A DNA stretch of 64,000 bases, taken from contig NZ_CP022541.1 of assembly GCF_002237555.1 (NCBI RefSeq), forward strand, positions 1 to 64,000, given 5' to 3'. Under the pieces are notes generated by a model. That model saw only the letters and a program-made list of their open reading frames with translations. It did not search any database and was not told the DNA's origin. How positions within the stretch are numbered: position 1 is the stretch's first letter; each line of letters begins with the position of its first letter. Shown one piece after another: positions 4,229 to 43,412 of this stretch. The translations under genes were made by a program, and so were the position numbers. The stretch is from Antarctobacter heliothermus (GTDB lineage: Bacteria > Pseudomonadota > Alphaproteobacteria > Rhodobacterales > Rhodobacteraceae).

Positions 4229-5989
4229 TTACCTATTCATGCGATCCTGCGCCAACTGGACAATCGCGCGCTCAAGCGAGAGGAATTCTGGATTGTCGCA
4301 CCCGTAGTCGCCAAGAAAGCGACTAATGGCTTTTCTGGAAAAGCTTGACCGCCCTCGTATCAGTGACGTTGGCCCGGAAAGAAACGGATCAACAAGTGGG
4401 ATTGTAGCACGACGCGTCCGAAACTCACTTTTTTCTGCGCCGCGAAGTGTAGCCACGCCACGCGAAGTTTCCGAAATCGTTTTAGTGACAGTGAATTTTC
4501 CAAACGATCCAGCATCATCGCAGTCCTCACTGTAAGGAGCTTCGGGGTGAAGAGCGTGTGAAAGCACCTCGAGGTAGTCCCGGATCAATCTCTCAGCCCT
4601 GCCATCCGATAAACGCTCTCCGCCGCAGCAAAGAACATTGACGATATCCGGAGCATGTGTCTCGAAAAAGAGAGCTCGAACCCTCTCTCTATCGCGCCGT
4701 GTCGCTTCCGGATCATCCGGCCTCTTGTATCCAGCATCAGAAAAGCCGATCTGCATTGCCACCCCGCGAGCTGCGGCAAAGGAATTTGGCGGTGGCCCTT
4801 GCCCGGCAAGATCGAAAAAACGGACTTGGCATTTCGGCGTCCAGCGAGAGCCGTGGAAGCACTCCGGCTTTGAACCGTCCTTCACACGGGTTGTTCCAAG
4901 GTGGAAAACTGCCCGAAACAGCGGTGCGTTGAACCCCGTCCAATACCGATCGATAATGGCGACATATGCATCTGGACAAGATGCCAATACCGCTGCCCTT
5001 ACTCCAAGATCTATACCTTCGAGATTTGGCTCGATCGTCCATGCCGCCTTATATCTATCCTCGTGTTCGGGAACAATGGAGCCAGCCTTGTTGTAAAGAT
5101 GGCTTGTTGCGACGGCTAGGTTAACGAAGGGCGGATTGCAGAATGTCGCGGAGTCCGGATTCGGGCGTATGCGGCGTGTTTTAACCAAGGAAACGCATCG
5201 CTCTTCTTCCGGGTGGCATCGTCCGACCGTGCCAGGCACGGGAAATGCCACATCTTCATAGTCGGGGAACATGTGGACGACCGGACCCAGCGATTCGAAG
5301 CCTGACACGGAAGGCTGCGGGACCTGCATCAAGGCAGCGGAAACGATAGCATTGTCCAATGCAACCTGCTGAATGACCGTCTCGGGAAAAGACTCGACCA
5401 TCTTCTTCATGTCCCGCTCTGTTGGAGGCCATGTGCCAAGACCCGACGGAAGTTCATCTTGAACTGCCATCTTCGGCCGCTCTGATTTCTCCTTGTCAAC
5501 TGCACCCCGAGTTGCAGGCTCCGCGTCTGCAACTATGGCGCCAATCTGTGGCTTCCTAGTTTCCGCCAAGTCCGTCTGATTGCTGCCCAGTGTCAAGTTG
5601 ACAGGTCCGATGACAGTCGCCCGCGCTCCTTCGCGCTTGGACCATTCGAAAACCCAGCCGGTTTCTTTTATACTTTTCAGAATGATGAACCCGCCGGTCC
5701 CACAAGAATCTGTTCCTGTAACAAGTCTTTCGTCGAACTCCAGCCGGGACTCCGTCATACGGGCTGTCTCAAGAGTTCCGCCGCAGTTCAGATCCGGATA
5801 CGCGATGCGTATGATGGAGTCATCGCTCCAGATCCTTACCGAATATTCGCCATAACCACTCTGCATGACGGTGCCGGAAGCCTTGATCTGTAGAGTGGAA
5901 GCATCACGGGTTTGTGCCCATGCGGAGGACGCAAGAAATACTGATATCAAGGTAACCGTCATGAAAGTAAGAAATGAAATTTTATTCAT
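4229..5989 (-). CDS. Exported hypothetical protein, 586 aa
   Basis: I do not recognise the family. The start at 5989 was chosen because it gives a clear Sec signal peptide (MNKISFLTFMTVTLIS, cleavage after SSAWA) and has GGAGGT upstream; an open frame continues 34 codons further but lacks both. After the signal, residues 30-150 look like a compact beta-rich domain with paired cysteines (DLNCGGTLE, TDSCGTGGF). A polar linker follows, then a larger domain with more cysteine pairs (GRCHPEEERCVSL, LCCGGERL). The many cysteines fit a periplasmic or surface protein with disulfides. It stands alone between IS elements, and palindromes at 6173-6210 lie upstream. Confidence 0.7.
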   Translation of the reverse strand: MNKISFLTFMTVTLISVFLASSAWAQTRDASTLQIKASGTVMQSGYGEYSVRIWSDDSIIRIAYPDLNCGGTLETARMTESRLEFDERLVTGTDSCGTGGFIILKSIKETGWVFEWSKREGARATVIGPVNLTLGSNQTDLAETRKPQIGAIVADAEPATRGAVDKEKSERPKMAVQDELPSGLGTWPPTERDMKKMVESFPETVIQQVALDNAIVSAALMQVPQPSVSGFESLGPVVHMFPDYEDVAFPVPGTVGRCHPEEERCVSLVKTRRIRPNPDSATFCNPPFVNLAVATSHLYNKAGSIVPEHEDRYKAAWTIEPNLEGIDLGVRAAVLASCPDAYVAIIDRYWTGFNAPLFRAVFHLGTTRVKDGSKPECFHGSRWTPKCQVRFFDLAGQGPPPNSFAAARGVAMQIGFSDAGYKRPDDPEATRRDRERVRALFFETHAPDIVNVLCCGGERLSDGRAERLIRDYLEVLSHALHPEAPYSEDCDDAGSFGKFTVTKTISETSRGVATLRGAEKSEFRTRRATIPLVDPFLSGPTSLIRGRSSFSRKAISRFLGDYGCDNPEFLSLERAIVQLAQDRMNR

Positions 5990-9347: not shown

Positions 9348-9734
9348 TCAGATCGCCGTCAGGCCTGCCGACAGCCACTTGGCAAAGTCCGCCTCGTCAA
9401 CGGATCCCGTCGCAAGCGCCTCCATCATTCTGACACCTTCTGTTGTCTCGGGACGGAAGGCGTAGCCATTCAGGCGAAGGAATGTCAGCGCCGTCACAAA
9501 AGCCGTGCGCTTGTTGCCATCCACAAAGGCATGAGCCTTGGCAATGCCAAAGGCATATGCCGCAGCCATCTCTGCAACCCCGGCATCAGAAAAGACCGCA
9601 AGGTTCATCGCACGCGCGCACCCCATCTCAAGCAGCGCCCGGTCACGCATACCCGAAGCCCCGCCATGGCGGGCGATCTGTCGATCATGGATGGCAAGGA
9701 CAGCAGCCAGCGGAACCCAGACCGGCTTACTCAA
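9348..9734 (-). CDS. doc: Fic/Doc-family toxin (death-on-curing)
   Basis: A Doc-type toxin of 128 residues, usual family length. The Fic/Doc active-site motif is visible as HAFVDGNKRTA at residues 67-77. Doc enzymes phosphorylate elongation factor Tu and stop translation; this function is from the family, not shown here. The gene overlaps the upstream antitoxin by 4 bp (ATGA, 9731-9734), so the two are translationally coupled. It ends only a few bases from the IS6 remnant but is intact. In the context of a plasmid it probably acts in post-segregational stabilisation. Confidence 0.9.
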   Translation of the reverse strand: MSKPVWVPLAAVLAIHDRQIARHGGASGMRDRALLEMGCARAMNLAVFSDAGVAEMAAAYAFGIAKAHAFVDGNKRTAFVTALTFLRLNGYAFRPETTEGVRMMEALATGSVDEADFAKWLSAGLTAI

Positions 9735-9955
9735 GCAAGGGCCTGAAGCAGGTCGCGGTTTTCATCCATAACGATCTCGGCAGTGGCCAGCGCGGCGGCC
9801 ACTTCGGGATTATGCGGAGTGATTTTCAGACTGCCATCGTCCCCGCGCACGATGAAAAGGGTATCGCCTTCCTTTGCATCGAGAATGGTAAGCATCTCGG
9901 TTGTCAGCGTCATGACGGCAGAGTTGCCGACCTTGCGGATCTTGGATTCAATCAT
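9731..9955 (-). CDS. AbrB/MazE-type antitoxin partner of Doc
   Basis: A 74-residue SpoVT/AbrB-fold protein (MIESKIRKVGNSAVMTLT, then a swapped-hairpin segment with DAKEGDTLFIV). The C-terminal part (EIVMDENRDLLQALA) probably wraps around the toxin. An open frame runs to 10009, but the ATG at 9955 has AAGGAGGT just upstream and gives the conserved N-terminus. Classical Doc partners are Phd-fold, so this is an AbrB-Doc hybrid pair. It is expected to neutralise Doc and to repress its own promoter. Confidence 0.87.
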   Translation of the reverse strand: MIESKIRKVGNSAVMTLTTEMLTILDAKEGDTLFIVRGDDGSLKITPHNPEVAAALATAEIVMDENRDLLQALA

Positions 9956-9956
9956 T

Positions 9957-9990
9957 GCGGACCTCCTTGGATATATGAACGTATATACCG
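9957..9990 (-). promoter_or_regulatory. Ribosome-binding site and AT-rich operator/promoter of the Doc module
   Basis: On the minus strand AAGGAGGT precedes the antitoxin ATG. Just upstream is an imperfect palindrome (TATATGAACGTATATA on the plus strand, 9973-9988) that could hold the -10 element and the autoregulatory site of the AbrB-type antitoxin. This is inferred from position only. Confidence 0.45.
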
Positions 9991-10042
9991 ACCGCCCGGT
10001 TTCAAGCAAGCTTTGCGGACAGGATCACGGGGCGGGCCGCTG

Positions 10043-10202: not shown

Positions 10203-11030
10203 GGGTCCGTTGCATTATGCAGGTGGTCGGTGCGATCTTGCTTGCGAGGAGGAGCCGCCATGCCGTGTCGTGACCCGTTCAAAGGCCATCGATTTCCGAA
10301 AGATGTGATCCTGCTCGCCGTTCGGTGGTATTGTCGGTATCCGCTGTCCTATCGCAACGTTCGCGATCTTCTTGCCGAGCGTGGGATCACGATCGACGCG
10401 GCCACGATATACCGTTGGGTGCAGAAGTTTTCTCCCGAAATCCGCAGACGCGCTTACGGTCGACACCGCAGCTGGCGCGGCCTGCAGTGGCATGTTGACG
10501 AAACCTACGTCCGCGTGAATGGCCGATGGTGCTATCTTTGGCGTGCTGTCGACCAATGTGGCCAACTGATCGATTTCCGTCTGACGGCGCGGCGAACGGC
10601 CAGTGCAGCAAGGGCATTCATGCGCCAGGCATCGGACTCCGTCCGCTGCTATCATCCTCTGACCATCGTGACCGACAAGGCTCATAGCTACGCGAAGGTT
10701 ATCGGCGAGTGGAATGCCCGCTCGAGTCCGGAAGACGCAATTCGCCATGTCACCAGGAAGTATCTCAACAATCGGATTGAAGGCGATCATGCGGTGCTCA
10801 AGCATCGACTGGCGCCGATGCGCGGACTTCAAAGCCTGAGTTCTGCGAAAGCCACCCTGAAAGGGGTCGAGACGTTCCGCGCCATCCGCAACGGTCATTT
10901 CGCAGGATGTGAGCAGGGCGTCGCCAACGAGATAGCCTTCGTCAGGAATCTGTTCGATGATAAGAAAAAGGTCGCCTGAACAAGGCGTGACACGCTTTCA
11001 CCGTCCTGAACCCAGCAACGCAACGGACCC
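10203..11030 (+). mobile_element. IS6-family insertion sequence, 828 bp, copy A
   Basis: Ends GGGTCCGTTGC are perfectly inverted (10203-10213 and 11020-11030) around one transposase gene. Copies of the same length, encoding identical proteins, lie at 14122-14949 (same orientation) and 42585-43412 (inverted). There is no matching 8-bp duplication across this copy. Its right flank (TTTGAGAGGG) resembles the equivalent flank of the inverted copy (GTTGAGAGGG). Confidence 0.92.
10260..10979 (+). CDS. IS6-family transposase (copy A)
   Basis: A 239-residue IS6/IS26-like DDE transposase. The start at 10260 (MPCRDPFKGHRFPKD) has GAGGAGGAG upstream; an in-frame GTG at 10230 gives only an unconserved extension. 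The core shows QWHVDETYVRVNG (first D), IVTDKAHSYAK (second D) and YLNNRIEGDHAVLKHRL (E region). The product is identical to the other two 828-bp copies, implying recent spread or conversion. It belongs to a different IS6 subgroup from the 810-bp elements. Confidence 0.92.
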   Translation: MPCRDPFKGHRFPKDVILLAVRWYCRYPLSYRNVRDLLAERGITIDAATIYRWVQKFSPEIRRRAYGRHRSWRGLQWHVDETYVRVNGRWCYLWRAVDQCGQLIDFRLTARRTASAARAFMRQASDSVRCYHPLTIVTDKAHSYAKVIGEWNARSSPEDAIRHVTRKYLNNRIEGDHAVLKHRLAPMRGLQSLSSAKATLKGVETFRAIRNGHFAGCEQGVANEIAFVRNLFDDKKKVA

Positions 11031-11065: not shown

Positions 11066-11992
11066 TCACACGGCGAGTGGTAGCTGTGTTTCTCTATCTA
11101 CGACCGAACCTGCTAAAGCATCTACACCTAAGTCTAAGTCCTTTATGGGTGTCGAGGTGTCCGTTTCAAAGTTAACAAGTAATGCTTCGTAAACAGCATT
11201 TCGGTTACTTTCTTTTGCGCCGACATGATAGAAGTGCTTTTTCGTTTGGATCGAAAAATCTCCCCAAAGCGAGAAAACGTAGTCATTCACGCGATACTTA
11301 TTTTGGAGCCAAGTTGACATAATGAATGGTGAACCACTCTTCGTAACCAGTGTGTGTAAGTCGCGTTCTTCTTCTTCTGACCAAGAGTCAAAATAATCGA
11401 CATGGCGACCTAGGTAGGGGGGGTCGCAATACACTAGGTCACTTGGTTCTACTTCGTACAGAGTGTCTCTAAACTCCTGATGTCTGAACTCAAAGTCACC
11501 CTGATTAATGACATGTGATACGGCAGAAATCTGGTTGCATATCTTGGTCACAAGAGCTTGCGCAAATCTGTTTGGCTTGCGGCAAAAAGGAACATTAAAA
11601 CCACCCTTCTTATTGAACCTCATCATTCCGTTGAAGCAAGAACGGCTCAAAAACATGAAGTCTAGTGGATTGCCATCTGTGTTAAATCGCTCTCTTACAG
11701 TGTAGTAGTGAGCCCCTTCTGTATCTAACAGCTTGTTACCTTCTTCGATTAAGAATTTGCGGGCAATATCTGCTGTGATCTCGCCATCTTGCAGGCTTTT
11801 GTAGAACCTTATGAGGTGGGGATTGCTATCGCACAGTAGAGCTCGTTTGGGTTGGATGTTGAAGGCAACAACGCCCGTTCCCATGAACGGTTCAACCCAT
11901 CTGTCGTAGTCTTGGTGGGTGCTTGTTTGGTGTATCCACTCTGCAAGCTTTGTTTTGATGCCTTGAGATTTGATTGGCGGAACTATGGTCAT
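11066..11992 (-). CDS. Adenine-N6 DNA methyltransferase, M.EcoRV/Dam type
   Basis: A 308-residue D12-class (Dam-like, alpha) methyltransferase. Motif I is EPFMGTGVVAF at residues 34-44 and the catalytic DPPY is at 190-193 (CDPPYLGRHVDYF). From memory of M.EcoRV the similarity is very strong along the length (PPIKSQGIKTKL, SCFNGMMRFNKKGGFNVPF, FYHVGA), so it should methylate the first adenine-containing half of GATATC. It starts 5 bp after the stop of the nuclease gene and lies in one transcription direction with repA. Base composition is visibly more AT-rich than in repA, suggesting import of the pair. Its 3' end is 35 bp from an IS6 end. Confidence 0.93.
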   Translation of the reverse strand: MTIVPPIKSQGIKTKLAEWIHQTSTHQDYDRWVEPFMGTGVVAFNIQPKRALLCDSNPHLIRFYKSLQDGEITADIARKFLIEEGNKLLDTEGAHYYTVRERFNTDGNPLDFMFLSRSCFNGMMRFNKKGGFNVPFCRKPNRFAQALVTKICNQISAVSHVINQGDFEFRHQEFRDTLYEVEPSDLVYCDPPYLGRHVDYFDSWSEEEERDLHTLVTKSGSPFIMSTWLQNKYRVNDYVFSLWGDFSIQTKKHFYHVGAKESNRNAVYEALLVNFETDTSTPIKDLDLGVDALAGSVVDRETQLPLAV

Positions 11993-11997
11993 GTCTA

Positions 11998-12843
11998 TTA
12001 CTTCGCTTTCCGCCGAGGCTTCGGCCTGTTGATAAGATTCGCATCCATTCCCTTAAATTCTAGGTACTCAGAGAGCTTGGTTAGATTTTTGAATTTCTTA
12101 GGGTTTTTGGGGTCTGGAACTTGCAGAACGCCTTGGTTTATCCAGTATTCGTCAAAGACGTCTTCGCCCAAGTTCGCAAATGCTCCGTTGCCTGCAAGAA
12201 CGTCTGGAATATAGCTGATACTACCGATATTGGCCGTGTTTCCGCTTCCACTACGGTCGCTTGCAATTTTCCATTTTTCCTCAACAAAAAACAGTAAATC
12301 TGTGATCACCGAAGTGATTGAAGTAAGCTCTGAAAGGTCGCGAACCTCTGTTTCATCAATGTCGTCAGATAGTGCGCGAGTATAAAGAATTCCTAATGAT
12401 ATGTGAGCATTGTAGTCTTTGTACGGGAACTGGATATTCTTCGTACTTGCGCGATCTCGAAAATATGCACCGTGCGAACCGAGCGTGAAACCGTTGCAAA
12501 AGTCTTTGTATTCGGAGAGGCGATAGGTGGTTTTGATATCGACCGCGAACTTTACCGACGGGTCTGACTTTTTGACGAATGATATATCAGGGTACCAGTT
12601 CTGATGTTCAGCCAAAACAAGATCGTACCCTGCCGCATCTGCAAACTCTAAAAACTTTGGAAATAATTGAATTTCCAGTATTTTTGAGATGATTTTTGTA
12701 TCGGCAGATATTGTGTAAATATTCTGGTCAACGTCGATGAAGCCCTTGATTGACCAGTCGCCACCGTTTGTTGAAACATATTCGGTTAGGGTTGTCCCAA
12801 GCTCCCGAAGTTGGGCCATAAACTCTGTAGTGGCTTCATCCAT
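11998..12843 (-). CDS. EcoRV-like type II restriction endonuclease
   Basis: A 281-residue homologue of EcoRV (245 residues). The PD-(D/E)XK site is intact: P85-D86 and D102-I-K104, with the same 16-residue spacing as D74 and D90 in EcoRV. The minor-groove loop QNWYPD matches EcoRV QNHYPD. The major-groove recognition loop GSGNTANIGS (199-208) matches EcoRV GSGNTTNIGS, which contacts GATATC, so the same blunt-cutting specificity is predicted. The extra length is at the N- and C-termini. It lies 11 bp downstream of repA and 5 bp upstream of the methyltransferase, all on one strand. No controller (C) gene is visible. Confidence 0.93.
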   Translation of the reverse strand: MDEATTEFMAQLRELGTTLTEYVSTNGGDWSIKGFIDVDQNIYTISADTKIISKILEIQLFPKFLEFADAAGYDLVLAEHQNWYPDISFVKKSDPSVKFAVDIKTTYRLSEYKDFCNGFTLGSHGAYFRDRASTKNIQFPYKDYNAHISLGILYTRALSDDIDETEVRDLSELTSITSVITDLLFFVEEKWKIASDRSGSGNTANIGSISYIPDVLAGNGAFANLGEDVFDEYWINQGVLQVPDPKNPKKFKNLTKLSEYLEFKGMDANLINRPKPRRKAK

Positions 12844-12854
12844 ATTTCTGCTCG

Positions 12855-13862
12855 TTATCTAAGGTTTTTTTGTTTATTGCAGTATGCCAAGAATGCAGCG
12901 CCTGCATTCTTTGGCGGATTCCTCTTGGTGGCTTCGCTCTTGGCGAACACCAGCCAATCAGAGCGTAGGGCATAGTAATCCCGACCCTTCTCCCTAGCAA
13001 TGGTCCTGGCCTTCTCCTCAGCCCACTCCGGCAGTTGGATTTCGGGCGATAGGTTGCTCTGTGGTGAGCGCGGACGGAAGATCACCAGGTCATCTGGGGT
13101 CAGCTCCATGCGATAGAACGGCGTGTGATCATCCTCGATGATCTGGCGGATGTTCAGCCGGAACTTCTTCAAGGGGGCGTTGCTGCCGGTCTTTTCCTGA
13201 AGCTTGGCGAGGCCGATGTGCCATTTCGGCTGGCCTCCGCAGTGCTTGCGGCCGATTTCATACAGGCGGCGTTCAAGCGGGCGACGCAGGCGAAAATAGT
13301 CGTTCGAGATCGTTATGACATCGTTGGCTTCAATCGCCCGCATGAACCAGTCAGACAGGACGACCTCGCAATAATCGAGCCGCCATAGCCCTTCTTCCTG
13401 CATGACAAATCCGGCTTCGTCCACGAGGCTGAAAATCCGGACTTCACGCTTGCCGCCTGTGCGGATCGTCGTGGTGAACTGTGTCCCCTGTAGCCGTTTG
13501 AAGGCTTGCTCCAGCCGCTTGTAGTGGTTGCCCCCAATCGGGCGGTTTGTGGAGATGGACAGCTCGCGGGCGCTGAACCGGACGCGTTTCCCGATCTTCT
13601 CGCCCCGGTTCTTCATGTGCATCAACTGGCTGATGCAGAAGATCAGAATATCCTTGTCCTTGATGGTGGGAAGGCCAAGGCCGGAGGGGACGATTTCCAG
13701 CCTGTTTTCGCCGTTCTGGTAAACCAGATGCCGCATGTCCGGCTTGGTCGCCAGGGAGAACAGGGGGTGCTCCATCGAGGCGGTGTCGTCCTTAGGGACA
13801 ACATCCGCGATATCGAGGATGAAGAAGTCTTTCTGGGGGTGTCTATCTGGGAGCAAAGGCAT
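12855..13862 (-). CDS. repA: Plasmid replication initiator protein (RPA family)
   Basis: A 335-residue initiator of the RPA superfamily (PF10134), common on alphaproteobacterial plasmids. Characteristic segments are HPLFSLATKPDMRH near the N-terminus, DILIFCISQLMH, the winged-helix region with RFSARELSIS and YKRLEQAFKRLQGTQF, and SNDYFRLRRPLERRLYEIGRKHCG. It should bind the iterons at 13882-14052 just upstream to open the origin. A GTG two codons earlier (13868) is an alternative start; neither start has a clear ribosome-binding site. The restriction gene follows after 11 bp. Confidence 0.92.
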   Translation of the reverse strand: MPLLPDRHPQKDFFILDIADVVPKDDTASMEHPLFSLATKPDMRHLVYQNGENRLEIVPSGLGLPTIKDKDILIFCISQLMHMKNRGEKIGKRVRFSARELSISTNRPIGGNHYKRLEQAFKRLQGTQFTTTIRTGGKREVRIFSLVDEAGFVMQEEGLWRLDYCEVVLSDWFMRAIEANDVITISNDYFRLRRPLERRLYEIGRKHCGGQPKWHIGLAKLQEKTGSNAPLKKFRLNIRQIIEDDHTPFYRMELTPDDLVIFRPRSPQSNLSPEIQLPEWAEEKARTIAREKGRDYYALRSDWLVFAKSEATKRNPPKNAGAAFLAYCNKQKNLR

Positions 13863-13881
13863 GCTCACAGGCTACAGTAAA

Positions 13882-14052
13882 TTTGACCCATCAGGAACCC
13901 GGAATTTGACCTATCAGGAACCGCGCGTGGGTCGTTAGATCGAGAACCAAAGTTTGACCCATCAGGAACCCTCGAGAGGCGATTTTCCGTTTGACCCTTT
14001 CGGAACCGGAATTTGACCCTTTCGGAACCCACGTTTGACCCTTTCGGAACCC
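13882..14052 (+). repeat. Iteron array, candidate plasmid replication origin
   Basis: Six direct repeats of 18-19 bp begin at about 13882, 13905, 13953, 13990, 14012 and 14034. The first three read TTTGACCCATCAGGAACC (the second has CTAT for CCAT). The last three read TTTGACCCTTTCGGAACC, spaced 22 bp apart, two helical turns. A 30-bp gap separates repeats 2 and 3. The array lies directly upstream of the divergent-facing repA start, and an AT-richer stretch follows at 14060-14110. This is the layout of an iteron-controlled origin; the next IS6 copy begins 70 bp away. Confidence 0.88.
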
Positions 14053-14121
14053 TGTGGATGGTTTCCTTTTATGGTATCAGTAAGTTAGTGGCGAATTTTG
14101 GCCCTGTAACATACTCCGTAG

Positions 14122-14949
14122 GGGTCCGTTGCATTATGCAGGTGGTCGGTGCGATCTTGCTTGCGAGGAGGAGCCGCCATGCCGTGTCGTGACCCGTTCA
14201 AAGGCCATCGATTTCCGAAAGATGTGATCCTGCTCGCCGTTCGGTGGTATTGTCGGTATCCGCTGTCCTATCGCAACGTTCGCGATCTTCTTGCCGAGCG
14301 TGGGATCACGATCGACGCGGCCACGATATACCGTTGGGTGCAGAAGTTTTCTCCCGAAATCCGCAGACGCGCTTACGGTCGACACCGCAGCTGGCGCGGC
14401 CTGCAGTGGCATGTTGACGAAACCTACGTCCGCGTGAATGGCCGATGGTGCTATCTTTGGCGTGCTGTCGACCAATGTGGCCAACTGATCGATTTCCGTC
14501 TGACGGCGCGGCGAACGGCCAGTGCAGCAAGGGCATTCATGCGCCAGGCATCGGACTCCGTCCGCTGCTATCATCCTCTGACCATCGTGACCGACAAGGC
14601 TCATAGCTACGCGAAGGTTATCGGCGAGTGGAATGCCCGCTCGAGTCCGGAAGACGCAATTCGCCATGTCACCAGGAAGTATCTCAACAATCGGATTGAA
14701 GGCGATCATGCGGTGCTCAAGCATCGACTGGCGCCGATGCGCGGACTTCAAAGCCTGAGTTCTGCGAAAGCCACCCTGAAAGGGGTCGAGACGTTCCGCG
14801 CCATCCGCAACGGTCATTTCGCAGGATGTGAGCAGGGCGTCGCCAACGAGATAGCCTTCGTCAGGAATCTGTTCGATGATAAGAAAAAGGTCGCCTGAAC
14901 AAGGCGTGACACGCTTTCACCGTCCTGAACCCAGCAACGCAACGGACCC
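14122..14949 (+). mobile_element. IS6-family insertion sequence, 828 bp, copy B
   Basis: Same length, ends and protein as copy A and in the same orientation, 3.1 kb away. Copies A and B together bracket the repA/restriction-modification/iteron block, giving a compound-transposon-like unit. The right end cuts the first codons of the azoreductase gene. Flanking octamers (ctccgtag and cttcgcat) do not match. Confidence 0.92.
14179..14898 (+). CDS. IS6-family transposase (copy B)
   Basis: 239 residues, identical to the copy at 10260-10979, with the same ATG, ribosome-binding site and DDE landmarks (QWHVDETY, IVTDKAHSY, NNRIEGDHAV). Intact. Recombination between this gene and copy A would loop out the replication block as a circle, and recombination with the inverted copy C would flip the catabolic block. 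Confidence 0.92.
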   Translation: MPCRDPFKGHRFPKDVILLAVRWYCRYPLSYRNVRDLLAERGITIDAATIYRWVQKFSPEIRRRAYGRHRSWRGLQWHVDETYVRVNGRWCYLWRAVDQCGQLIDFRLTARRTASAARAFMRQASDSVRCYHPLTIVTDKAHSYAKVIGEWNARSSPEDAIRHVTRKYLNNRIEGDHAVLKHRLAPMRGLQSLSSAKATLKGVETFRAIRNGHFAGCEQGVANEIAFVRNLFDDKKKVA

Positions 14950-15180: not shown

Positions 15181-16556
15181 GAGATATGCGCAGAAGTTGG
15201 TGACGCGTGATCAGGCGGCGTTTTGAAGTTGGCGGACGCCGTCGCGGAACTCAACCCCGCTGATGACCTCCGGGAGGCGATTCCGCCCGTCGAGTTTTCG
15301 CCATTTCGTCTGAGCAGACATCATCAGCCGGAAAGCCATGGCGAGCCCAGTCTTGCGGCTGAGGCAGCCCTTGGTGCGTTTCGTCCTGTGTCTGACGGTG
15401 GCGAACGTGCTCTCGATCGGATTTGACGTCCGGATGTGTTTCCAGTGTTCGGCCGGGTAGTCGTAGAAGGTCAGTAGTGCATCCCGATCCTTGACCAACT
15501 TGGCGACTGCCTTGTCCCATTTCACGCCGTAGGCATCGACGAAGAAGTCGAAGGCGGCCGACGCCGCGGCTCGGGTTTCGGCCTGCCAGATGTCGTGCAG
15601 GTGCGCCTTGGCCTTGGCTTGCACCGATTTCGGCAGCGCGTTGAGCACGTTCATGGTTTTGTGGAGCCAGCACCGCTGCTCCTGTGTCGAGGGGAAGACC
15701 TCGCGCAGTGCCGCCCAGAACCCCAGGGCGCCGTCGCCTATGGCGAGCTTGGGATCCTGCTTCAGTCCGCGGCGTTTGAGATCGAGCAGAACCTCGCGCC
15801 AACTCTGAGTGCTTTCGCGGAAGCCGTCGGTCATGGCCAGCAGCTCCTTGCGGCCGTATTCATCCGCACCCACGATCACCAAAACGCATTGTTTTTCCTC
15901 GGCCCTTCGCGGCTTGAAATAGACGCCGTCGGCCCAGATGTAGAGAAACCGCCGGGTGCCGAGGTCACGCTTTTCCCAGGCCTCGTACTCGGACCACCAG
16001 TCCGCTTTCAGCCGCGTGATCGTAGTGGCCGAGAGGCCCTTGGCGTGTGGCCCCAGCAGGGCGGCAAGCGCCTCACTGAAATCGCCGGTGGACACGCCCT
16101 TCAGGTAAAGCCAGGGCAGCAGCTCTTCGACCGACTTTGCCTTGCGCAGATACCGCGGCAGGATGCTGGGCGTGAACGCGATCTTGTCCGTGCCCGGCTT
16201 GCGGTCCCGCACACGCGGCACCGTCACGGCAACAGGCCCGACACCGGTCAAAATCTCACGCTCGGGCAGGTGCCCATGACGAACCAGTCTTGCGCGACCA
16301 TCCTCAAGCTTGTGATCGGCAAAGGCGCCAAGCAGCGTGGACAGTTCCGCCTCAATCGCCTGCTCGATCAGCTTGCGCGCGCCGTCCCGGATGAGGTCGG
16401 TCAGCGGGTCCGGCGAAATCCCGGATGGATCAGATAGCTGGGTGATGGTATTCTCTTGCATGTGGCATATCCCTTTCTCGGTTGAGAATTGACGGCGCTT
16501 CGACACCGCCATGATATGTCGCCCCTCAGGGCATCACCAACTTTCGCGCATATCTC
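15181..16556 (-). mobile_element. IS256-family insertion sequence, copy 2
   Basis: 1376 bp, same ends and protein as copy 1 but inverted. Ends are GAGATATGCGC on both sides, and the 8-bp target duplication acaggctg is perfect (15173-15180 and 16557-16564). The clean duplication shows simple transposition into the azoreductase gene and defines the true ends of the element. Confidence 0.95.
15211..16461 (-). CDS. IS256-family transposase (copy 2)
   Basis: 416 residues, identical in sequence to the product at 141-1391 and using the same start (MQENTITQ). The DDE landmarks are complete. A longer open frame to 16512 reaches toward the terminal repeat and is not the preferred start. Confidence 0.92.
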   Translation of the reverse strand: MQENTITQLSDPSGISPDPLTDLIRDGARKLIEQAIEAELSTLLGAFADHKLEDGRARLVRHGHLPEREILTGVGPVAVTVPRVRDRKPGTDKIAFTPSILPRYLRKAKSVEELLPWLYLKGVSTGDFSEALAALLGPHAKGLSATTITRLKADWWSEYEAWEKRDLGTRRFLYIWADGVYFKPRRAEEKQCVLVIVGADEYGRKELLAMTDGFRESTQSWREVLLDLKRRGLKQDPKLAIGDGALGFWAALREVFPSTQEQRCWLHKTMNVLNALPKSVQAKAKAHLHDIWQAETRAAASAAFDFFVDAYGVKWDKAVAKLVKDRDALLTFYDYPAEHWKHIRTSNPIESTFATVRHRTKRTKGCLSRKTGLAMAFRLMMSAQTKWRKLDGRNRLPEVISGVEFRDGVRQLQNAA

Positions 16557-42584: not shown

Positions 42585-43412
42585 GGGTCCGTTGCGTTGC
42601 TGGGTTCAGGACGGTGAAAGCGTGTCACGCCTTGTTCAGGCGACCTTTTTCTTATCATCGAACAGATTCCTGACGAAGGCTATCTCGTTGGCGACGCCCT
42701 GCTCACATCCTGCGAAATGACCGTTGCGGATGGCGCGGAACGTCTCGACCCCTTTCAGGGTGGCTTTCGCAGAACTCAGGCTTTGAAGTCCGCGCATCGG
42801 CGCCAGTCGATGCTTGAGCACCGCATGATCGCCTTCAATCCGATTGTTGAGATACTTCCTGGTGACATGGCGAATTGCGTCTTCCGGACTCGAGCGGGCA
42901 TTCCACTCGCCGATAACCTTCGCGTAGCTATGAGCCTTGTCGGTCACGATGGTCAGAGGATGATAGCAGCGGACGGAGTCCGATGCCTGGCGCATGAATG
43001 CCCTTGCTGCACTGGCCGTTCGCCGCGCCGTCAGACGGAAATCGATCAGTTGGCCACATTGGTCGACAGCACGCCAAAGATAGCACCATCGGCCATTCAC
43101 GCGGACGTAGGTTTCGTCAACATGCCACTGCAGGCCGCGCCAGCTGCGGTGTCGACCGTAAGCGCGTCTGCGGATTTCGGGAGAAAACTTCTGCACCCAA
43201 CGGTATATCGTGGCCGCGTCGATCGTGATCCCACGCTCGGCAAGAAGATCGCGAACGTTGCGATAGGACAGCGGATACCGACAATACCACCGAACGGCGA
43301 GCAGGATCACATCTTTCGGAAATCGATGGCCTTTGAACGGGTCACGACACGGCATGGCGGCTCCTCCTCGCAAGCAAGATCGCACCGACCACCTGCATAA
43401 TGCAACGGACCC
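42585..43412 (-). mobile_element. IS6-family insertion sequence, 828 bp, copy C (inverted)
   Basis: Same length, ends and encoded protein as copies A and B but on the minus strand. It lies 41 bp after the PfkB stop and 17 bp before the end of the RTX gene. In its own orientation the right flank is GTTGAGAGGG, against TTTGAGAGGG for copy A, a near match suggesting an inversion-type event between them. The two outer flanks do not match each other. Confidence 0.92.
42636..43355 (-). CDS. IS6-family transposase (copy C)
   Basis: 239 residues, identical to the products at 10260-10979 and 14179-14898, with the same preferred ATG (MPCRDPFKGH) after GAGGAGGAG. An open frame reaches further upstream to 43424 past the terminal repeat, which is not a natural start. 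DDE landmarks are complete. Confidence 0.92.
   Translation of the reverse strand: MPCRDPFKGHRFPKDVILLAVRWYCRYPLSYRNVRDLLAERGITIDAATIYRWVQKFSPEIRRRAYGRHRSWRGLQWHVDETYVRVNGRWCYLWRAVDQCGQLIDFRLTARRTASAARAFMRQASDSVRCYHPLTIVTDKAHSYAKVIGEWNARSSPEDAIRHVTRKYLNNRIEGDHAVLKHRLAPMRGLQSLSSAKATLKGVETFRAIRNGHFAGCEQGVANEIAFVRNLFDDKKKVA

Follow-up and report, generated by a model that had tools for sequence, protein, structure and literature searches.

A repA-linked EcoRV-type restriction-modification pair between IS6-family copies in an Antarctobacter heliothermus plasmid: probable capture of a small RepA plasmid fragment

Background

The EcoRV restriction-modification (R-M) system is governed by divergent promoters under the control of a C protein (PMC11736437). 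Type II R-M pairs on two other small plasmids of Rhodobacterales, pAES2 of P. aestuarii (PMC3832669) and the RepY plasmid pDSM110277_f (PMC9025767, section 3.4.2), have each been proposed to be an addiction module. When replication of a plasmid carrying the PaeR7I R-M genes was blocked, 24 of the 28 products recovered had it fused with the E. coli chromosome at an IS1 or IS5 element, and PaeR7I restriction favoured the successful integrants (PMC3031569). Here we describe an EcoRV-type pair of Antarctobacter heliothermus that lies directly behind a plasmid replication initiator gene, repA, and between two copies of an insertion sequence (IS). The stretch analysed, which we call the window, is the first 64 kb (positions 1-64,000) of the 372,263-bp contig C2 (NZ_CP022541.1). 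We write R for the EcoRV-family nuclease gene, M for the methyltransferase gene and C for the regulator of C-controlled type II R-M systems; L numbers (such as L022) label the loci and plasmid stretches compared.

In our view, repA, R and M probably derive from a small RepA plasmid of Rhodobacterales with a C-less EcoRV-type pair, a fragment of which was captured and now resides in a 372-kb plasmid; the nuclease is then probably a passenger and not a part of the copy control of the large plasmid. Among the titles and abstract openings of the matching open-licence PMC articles listed, we found neither co-transcription of repA, R and M nor an IS6-bracketed R-M replicon.

Results and discussion

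An EcoRV-type pair directly behind repA

The three reading frames are all intact and, as an earlier note on this DNA had it, lie on the same strand with 11 bp between repA and R (12844-12854) and 5 bp between R and M (11993-11997); the coordinates given there hold (Table 1). We place the repA start at the ATG at 13862, a GTG six bases earlier being a possible alternative. R matches the Endonuc-EcoRV profile (PF09233) along its whole length (1-244 of 244) and shares 37% identity with EcoRV encoded on the E. coli plasmid pLG13 over 208 aligned columns; M is 59% identical to the M.EcoRV of the same plasmid over 275 aligned columns, which agrees with the likeness drawn in the earlier note.

Table 1. 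Positions of repA, the EcoRV-type pair and the flanking features in the window
Feature	Position	Strand	Evidence
IS6-family insertion sequence copy A, 828 bp; transposase open reading frame 10230-10979	10203..11030	+	NCBIfam transpos_IS6 E 1.5e-69; identical to copy B
M, D12-class (Dam-family) adenine methyltransferase, M.EcoRV-like, 308 aa	11066..11992	-	PF02086 (MethyltransfD12) E 8.6e-44; TIGR00571; 59% to M.EcoRV
R, EcoRV-family type II restriction endonuclease, 281 aa	11998..12843	-	PF09233 E 5.3e-117; PDB EcoRV chains E 3.7e-36
repA, RPA-type replication initiator, 335 aa	12855..13862	-	PF10134 E 5.5e-88; 95% aa to Sulfitobacter faviae NZ_CP139731 RepA
Origin region, six iteron-like repeats of two sub-types	13873..14053	.	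Repeat search; alignment with origins of 12 relatives
Remaining 10 bp of conserved 28-bp origin-edge element, outer part replaced by IS copy B	14112..14121	-	12 relatives aligned
IS6-family insertion sequence copy B; transposase open reading frame 14149-14898	14122..14949	+	Identical to copy A over 828 bp

EcoRV residues E45, Q69, N70, D74, D90, I91 and K92 are identical in the window nuclease (E57, Q81, N82, D86, D102, I103 and K104), as are K119, G182, S183, G184, N185, T186 and N188 (K135, G199, S200, G201, N202, T203 and N205), while two positions are changed, T187 to A204 and S112 to A126. The P-D...D-x-K motif is kept together with the E45 equivalent (P85, D86, D102, K104 and E57), with the 16 residues from D86 to D102 that the earlier note had remarked upon, and the segment corresponding to G182-N188 reads GSGNTAN, six of its seven residues being identical and T187 being alanine, which bears out the EcoRV-like recognition loop described there. 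We take D74, D90, K92 and E45 of EcoRV to be its catalytic residues and the loop G182-N188 to provide its recognition contacts, and both sets have their equivalents in the window nuclease. By these comparisons a nuclease and methyltransferase pair of EcoRV type is well supported.

repA and its origin resemble those of small RepA plasmids

An RPA-domain initiator with iterons upstream of it, by which RepA (RPA) replicons are recognized, is present in the window. The best match to repA and its origin is the 5,727-bp plasmid NZ_CP139731 of Sulfitobacter faviae, 91.4% identical in DNA, and this match begins at the IS edge and breaks off at the repA stop; between the two repA genes the non-synonymous divergence (dN) is 0.031 and the synonymous divergence (dS) 0.316, with 95% amino acid identity. 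Among 12 repA relatives compared for their downstream genes (L009, L011, L012 and L108-L116), whose gene tables are incomplete, these genes vary, with some shared (L112 and L114 have the same protein), and in two, pTB4 and Thioclava FTW29, a co-directional annotated gene starts 25 bp or less past repA. R is in none of the 12; its tblastn matches fall in 11 plasmid records, none of which is one of these. R and M have a G+C content of 43.9% and 44.7%, respectively, against 56.6% for repA. Because the downstream genes vary, R is absent from the 12 relatives and the G+C content is lower, the pair appears to be an addition to the region behind repA.

In aligning the origins we noticed, as a side result, a 28-bp element at the edge of the origin, 217-278 bp upstream of repA in all 12 relatives that were compared for it (L009, L011, L012, L108-L112 and L116-L119). 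Ten of these carry it without a mismatch and two with 2 or 3 mismatches, so that it is nearly invariant, unlike the iterons that separate it from repA, which differ among the plasmids. In the window the boundary of IS copy B falls within this element, whose outer part is missing. An intact distal element is a feature noticed in this analysis rather than an established mark of RepA replicons; its truncation here suggests that the captured origin is weakened.

The segment is bracketed by identical IS6-family copies

Copies A and B are identical, have the same orientation and enclose 3,091 bp in which M, R, repA and the iterons are found. The identical sequence occurs a third time, inverted, at 42585-43412; these three, all on the 372-kb contig, are the only full copies that a search of the whole genome showed, and partial relatives occur around 24.4-25.0 and 71.3-71.9 kb of this contig. 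Replicon fusion by IS6-family elements leaves directly repeated copies where the replicons meet (PMC7986276), so the arrangement in the window is what capture by fusion would leave.

The same copies could also bound a translocatable unit, in which the direct copies recombine to give a 3,919-bp circle (IS, origin, repA, R and M) that re-enters at other IS6 copies; the circle might replicate by itself if its origin works, and the R-M pair would enforce its retention. The identical direct copies, the unit length of 3,919 bp and the third copy on the contig accord with this, and models for such circles of IS26 are described in PMC7986276, but the assembly holds no second copy of the unit, R being matched once in the whole genome, and the origin edge is cut. 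We consider this reading quite improbable. We give still less credence to an IS6-bounded 3.9-kb mobile unit in which RepA-iteron feedback, instead of C, would set the R-M dose from the autoregulated promoter of the initiator; if it were true, the unit would impose itself on whichever plasmid it became joined to through IS6.

The carrier plasmid has another replicon locus

A protein of 237 amino acids with a DnaA N-terminal domain is encoded next to ParA and ParB at approximately 210-213.5 kb of the contig. It has matches in 291 plasmid records, at least 247 of them from Rhodobacterales by the genus names listed, and the ten records displayed are all annotated as 'DnaA N-terminal domain-containing protein'. 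The only RepC-family match lies on contig C4. Judged from sequence, the DnaA-like/ParAB locus probably drives the 372-kb plasmid. The earlier note had taken repA for the plasmid's own replicon and had labelled the carrier an RPA-type plasmid; with this locus on the contig, the repA unit bracketed by IS6 copies and the origin edge cut, the first of these views is not supported, nor is the link between copy control and addiction that was built on it. The label for the carrier is likewise unsupported.

Among the replicons of closed Sulfitobacter genomes listed, the DnaA-like ones are present at 0.6-0.8 copies and the small RepA plasmids (4.6-6.3 kb) at 9.5-12.5 copies (PMC9025767, Table 1); pDSM109990_f, at 9.5 copies (PMC9025767), is one of the 12 repA relatives. 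A silenced or weakened RepA origin would fit this setting, because a fully active one on a 372-kb plasmid would presumably be costly.

The same contig carries a second RPA-type initiator gene at 115237-115931 (L006 7094-8184), whose coding sequence is broken into two frames that overlap; it may belong to a captured replicon that is no longer functional.

The pair belongs to a C-less branch

We scanned GTDB species genomes with an alignment of the nuclease and kept 80 of 163 confirmed loci. M follows R on the same strand in all 80. The R-M gap, estimated approximately from the start codon nearest the aligned start, is negative (an overlap) in 66 loci and 17 bp or less in 78, and the two loci with large gaps (L051 and L089) have an early stop in R. 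An open reading frame (ORF) lies upstream at 59 loci; 54 of these ORFs were scanned against profiles (25 of the 71 families are listed), and none of the 29 shorter ones scanned gave a helix-turn-helix match. Adding four C-type proteins (from E. coli, Latilactobacillus, Acinetobacter and Geobacillus) returned four HTH_3 matches; on the four plasmids concerned the regulator lies ahead of R, and M is encoded on the other strand. In a tree of R that includes 79 of the 80 loci, one being dropped for a broken frame, six rows with M on the opposite strand are separated from 82 rows, the window among them, with 100/100 support, where the branches are long and the join may be false. Within this opposite-strand group, M and R are convergent rather than divergent in L105, L106 and L017, and L017 is without an obvious C gene. 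The window has no gene between repA and R or between R and M, so that, as the earlier note had observed, no C gene is seen there. The comparison places the window pair in this widespread C-less branch.

A relative of the window's RPA-type repA was found at none of the 80 loci by phmmer (E 1e-5; ORFs of at least 60 amino acids) in flanks of up to 6 kb, some of them shorter at contig ends. The earlier note had suggested looking for the same gene order elsewhere; it did not turn up, either at these loci or, from the side of R, in the 12 RepA relatives. R occurs in 6 of 394 genomes of the family and 3 of 385 of the class, the source genome being counted in both, and two scans of viral contigs gave no relatives of R. 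Among metagenome clusters compared by the length of their longest contig, 39 R clusters (of 120 listed) share 11 values with 32 M clusters (of 120 listed) and none with 118 values from 120 listed repA clusters; this measure is a weak stand-in and is to be read as a hint only.

Broken gene copies were noticed in L022 and L015. In L022, from a Hyphomonadaceae contig, a methyltransferase gene fragment (query residues 225-290) at 5171-5368 lies upstream of the R-M pair and is perhaps the remnant of a tandem copy. In L015 (G104:C1:1480-2054) stop codons interrupt an EcoRV-type nuclease gene whose neighbour, an M gene matched over residues 4-274, perhaps encodes a protective methylase left after the loss of R.

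Transcription of R and M

A scan for regulatory sites performed at chance level, with three promoter-like matches against 2.7 expected and three terminator-like matches against 4.1 expected. Within that limit, the minus strand between repA and R showed neither a terminator-like nor a promoter-like site, which leaves read-through from repA into R plausible; with equally little power, the scan gave no promoter upstream of repA.

One could conclude that repA, R and M are a single operon of a working replicon, in which RepA-iteron autoregulation would set the R-M dosage, copy control and addiction would be coupled and read-through would stand in for C. The gaps of only 11 and 5 bp, the lack of a separating terminator-like site or of a minus-strand promoter-like site upstream of R, the iterons abutting the repA start and the intact repA all speak for this, but it has to contend with the DnaA-like/ParA/ParB locus on the same contig, an origin edge cut by the IS, the variation of the genes behind repA among relatives and a branch in which C-less pairs without repA are the rule. 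We think this model unlikely. The last point bears directly on the earlier note's proposal that read-through replaces a lost C: since R followed by M without C is general in the branch (80 of 80 loci) with no RPA-type repA nearby, the idea that repA read-through was recruited for this purpose is weakened.

Alternatively, the pair may be a plain defence cassette that was inserted behind the repA of a small plasmid and has internal promoters of its own, its adjacency to repA being without regulatory meaning. R-M cassettes of the branch do stand beside unrelated genes in many phyla, and two weak promoter-like sites on the minus strand fall inside R, but the promoter-like matches of the scan scarcely exceeded expectation and, with only 11 bp between repA and R, any promoter preceding R would need to be inside repA. 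This alternative is a real possibility, although we hold it to be doubtful.

GATATC sites

The four GATATC sites named in the earlier note (8897, 13809, 24061 and 57302) are real and belong to a total of 20 in the window, where shuffling gives a mean of 9.6 (standard deviation 3.2). The genome has 1014 sites in 5.33 Mb, and five same-genus genomes of similar size have 723-1045; of these five only G763 was checked for R, which was not found in it. Avoidance of GATATC as a sign of activity was considered and rejected on these counts. The EcoRV-type pair supports the GATATC specificity assumed in the earlier note, and R likely cuts this sequence; the specificity stays a prediction because, in a strain whose EcoRI-methylase homologue is 52% identical, GAATTC was not methylated (PMC9025767, section 3.4.2).

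Proposed course of events

We suggest that the R-M pair was added behind repA in a small RepA plasmid, and that this plasmid would then have been fused into the megaplasmid via IS6 and trimmed. R and then M would be expressed from one message; as the gap behind repA is only 11 bp, its start is probably the repA promoter. The pair would restrict unmodified DNA. Cells losing the genes would be open to attack by the nuclease, and such post-segregational killing would maintain the unit and its carrier plasmid in the population; we infer that the pair acts as a defence, a post-segregational killer or both. The captured replicon is probably weakened or silent, and RepA may still be made.

Several observations weigh against one part or another of this reading. 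We found no free small plasmid with the order repA-R-M. repA is intact, so that the second replicon may still work. GATATC is not depleted in the genome, which thus bears no trace of long exposure to the enzyme. Finally, although the direct and identical copies of an IS6 pseudo-compound transposon or cointegrate are present, neither the inner nor the outer ends of copies A and B carry matching 8-bp target repeats; target-site duplications were therefore rejected as proof of cointegration, the capture event is inferred rather than demonstrated, and the two copies may have inserted independently. Subsequent deletions mediated by IS6 would remove such repeats.

If capture by fusion is correct, the locus is a natural counterpart of the laboratory rescue of an R-M plasmid by IS-mediated fusion, and it represents a route by which the addiction or defence genes of small plasmids enter a large low-copy plasmid. 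The existence of a widespread, collinear C-less branch of EcoRV-type systems also raises the question of start-up control, that is, what limits the amount of R while the DNA is being protected by M.

Neighbouring features

A Fic/Doc toxin-like gene (PF02661) at 9348-10009 on the minus strand overlaps a MazE-like antitoxin gene (PF04014) by 4 bp; this pair lies 193 bp from IS copy A and is a possible second addiction module. Two ORFs for the same 433-amino-acid IS256-family transposase, at 90-1391 on the plus strand and, inverted, at 15211-16512 on the minus strand, bracket the first 16.5 kb of the contig as an IS-rich island.

Comparison with known systems

The EcoRV system of E. coli pLG13 (NC_005019), likewise on a small plasmid, shares with the window the nuclease family, the catalytic residues and a methyltransferase that is 59% identical, but there M is encoded on the opposite strand and a C regulator is present, whereas in the window R and M are on one strand without C. 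Closer in layout are two C-less pairs in which R is followed by M with a 4-bp overlap, that of Rhodothermus marinus pRMAR01 (R 55% and M 52% identical to the window) and that of the Hyphomonadaceae contig L022 (R 75%); unlike in the window, no RPA-type repA was found beside either pair.

On the replicon side, S. faviae NZ_CP139731, R. denitrificans pTB4 and P. methylutens pMTH1 share repA, iterons and the layout of the origin with the window. Of the small RepA plasmids examined (of roseobacters and Paracoccus, among others; 12 in each comparison), all have the 28-bp element whole and none is among the 11 plasmid records with a match to R, whereas in the window the element is cut and R is present.

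The R-M pairs of pAES2 and pDSM110277_f are cytosine-methyltransferase systems of other families on free plasmids, in contrast to the IS-bracketed pair with its adenine methyltransferase in the window. In the PaeR7I case, as probably in the window, an R-M plasmid is joined to another replicon at IS copies (PMC3031569); that case arose under laboratory selection and involved IS1 and IS5, whereas the window presents a natural arrangement with an IS6-family element.

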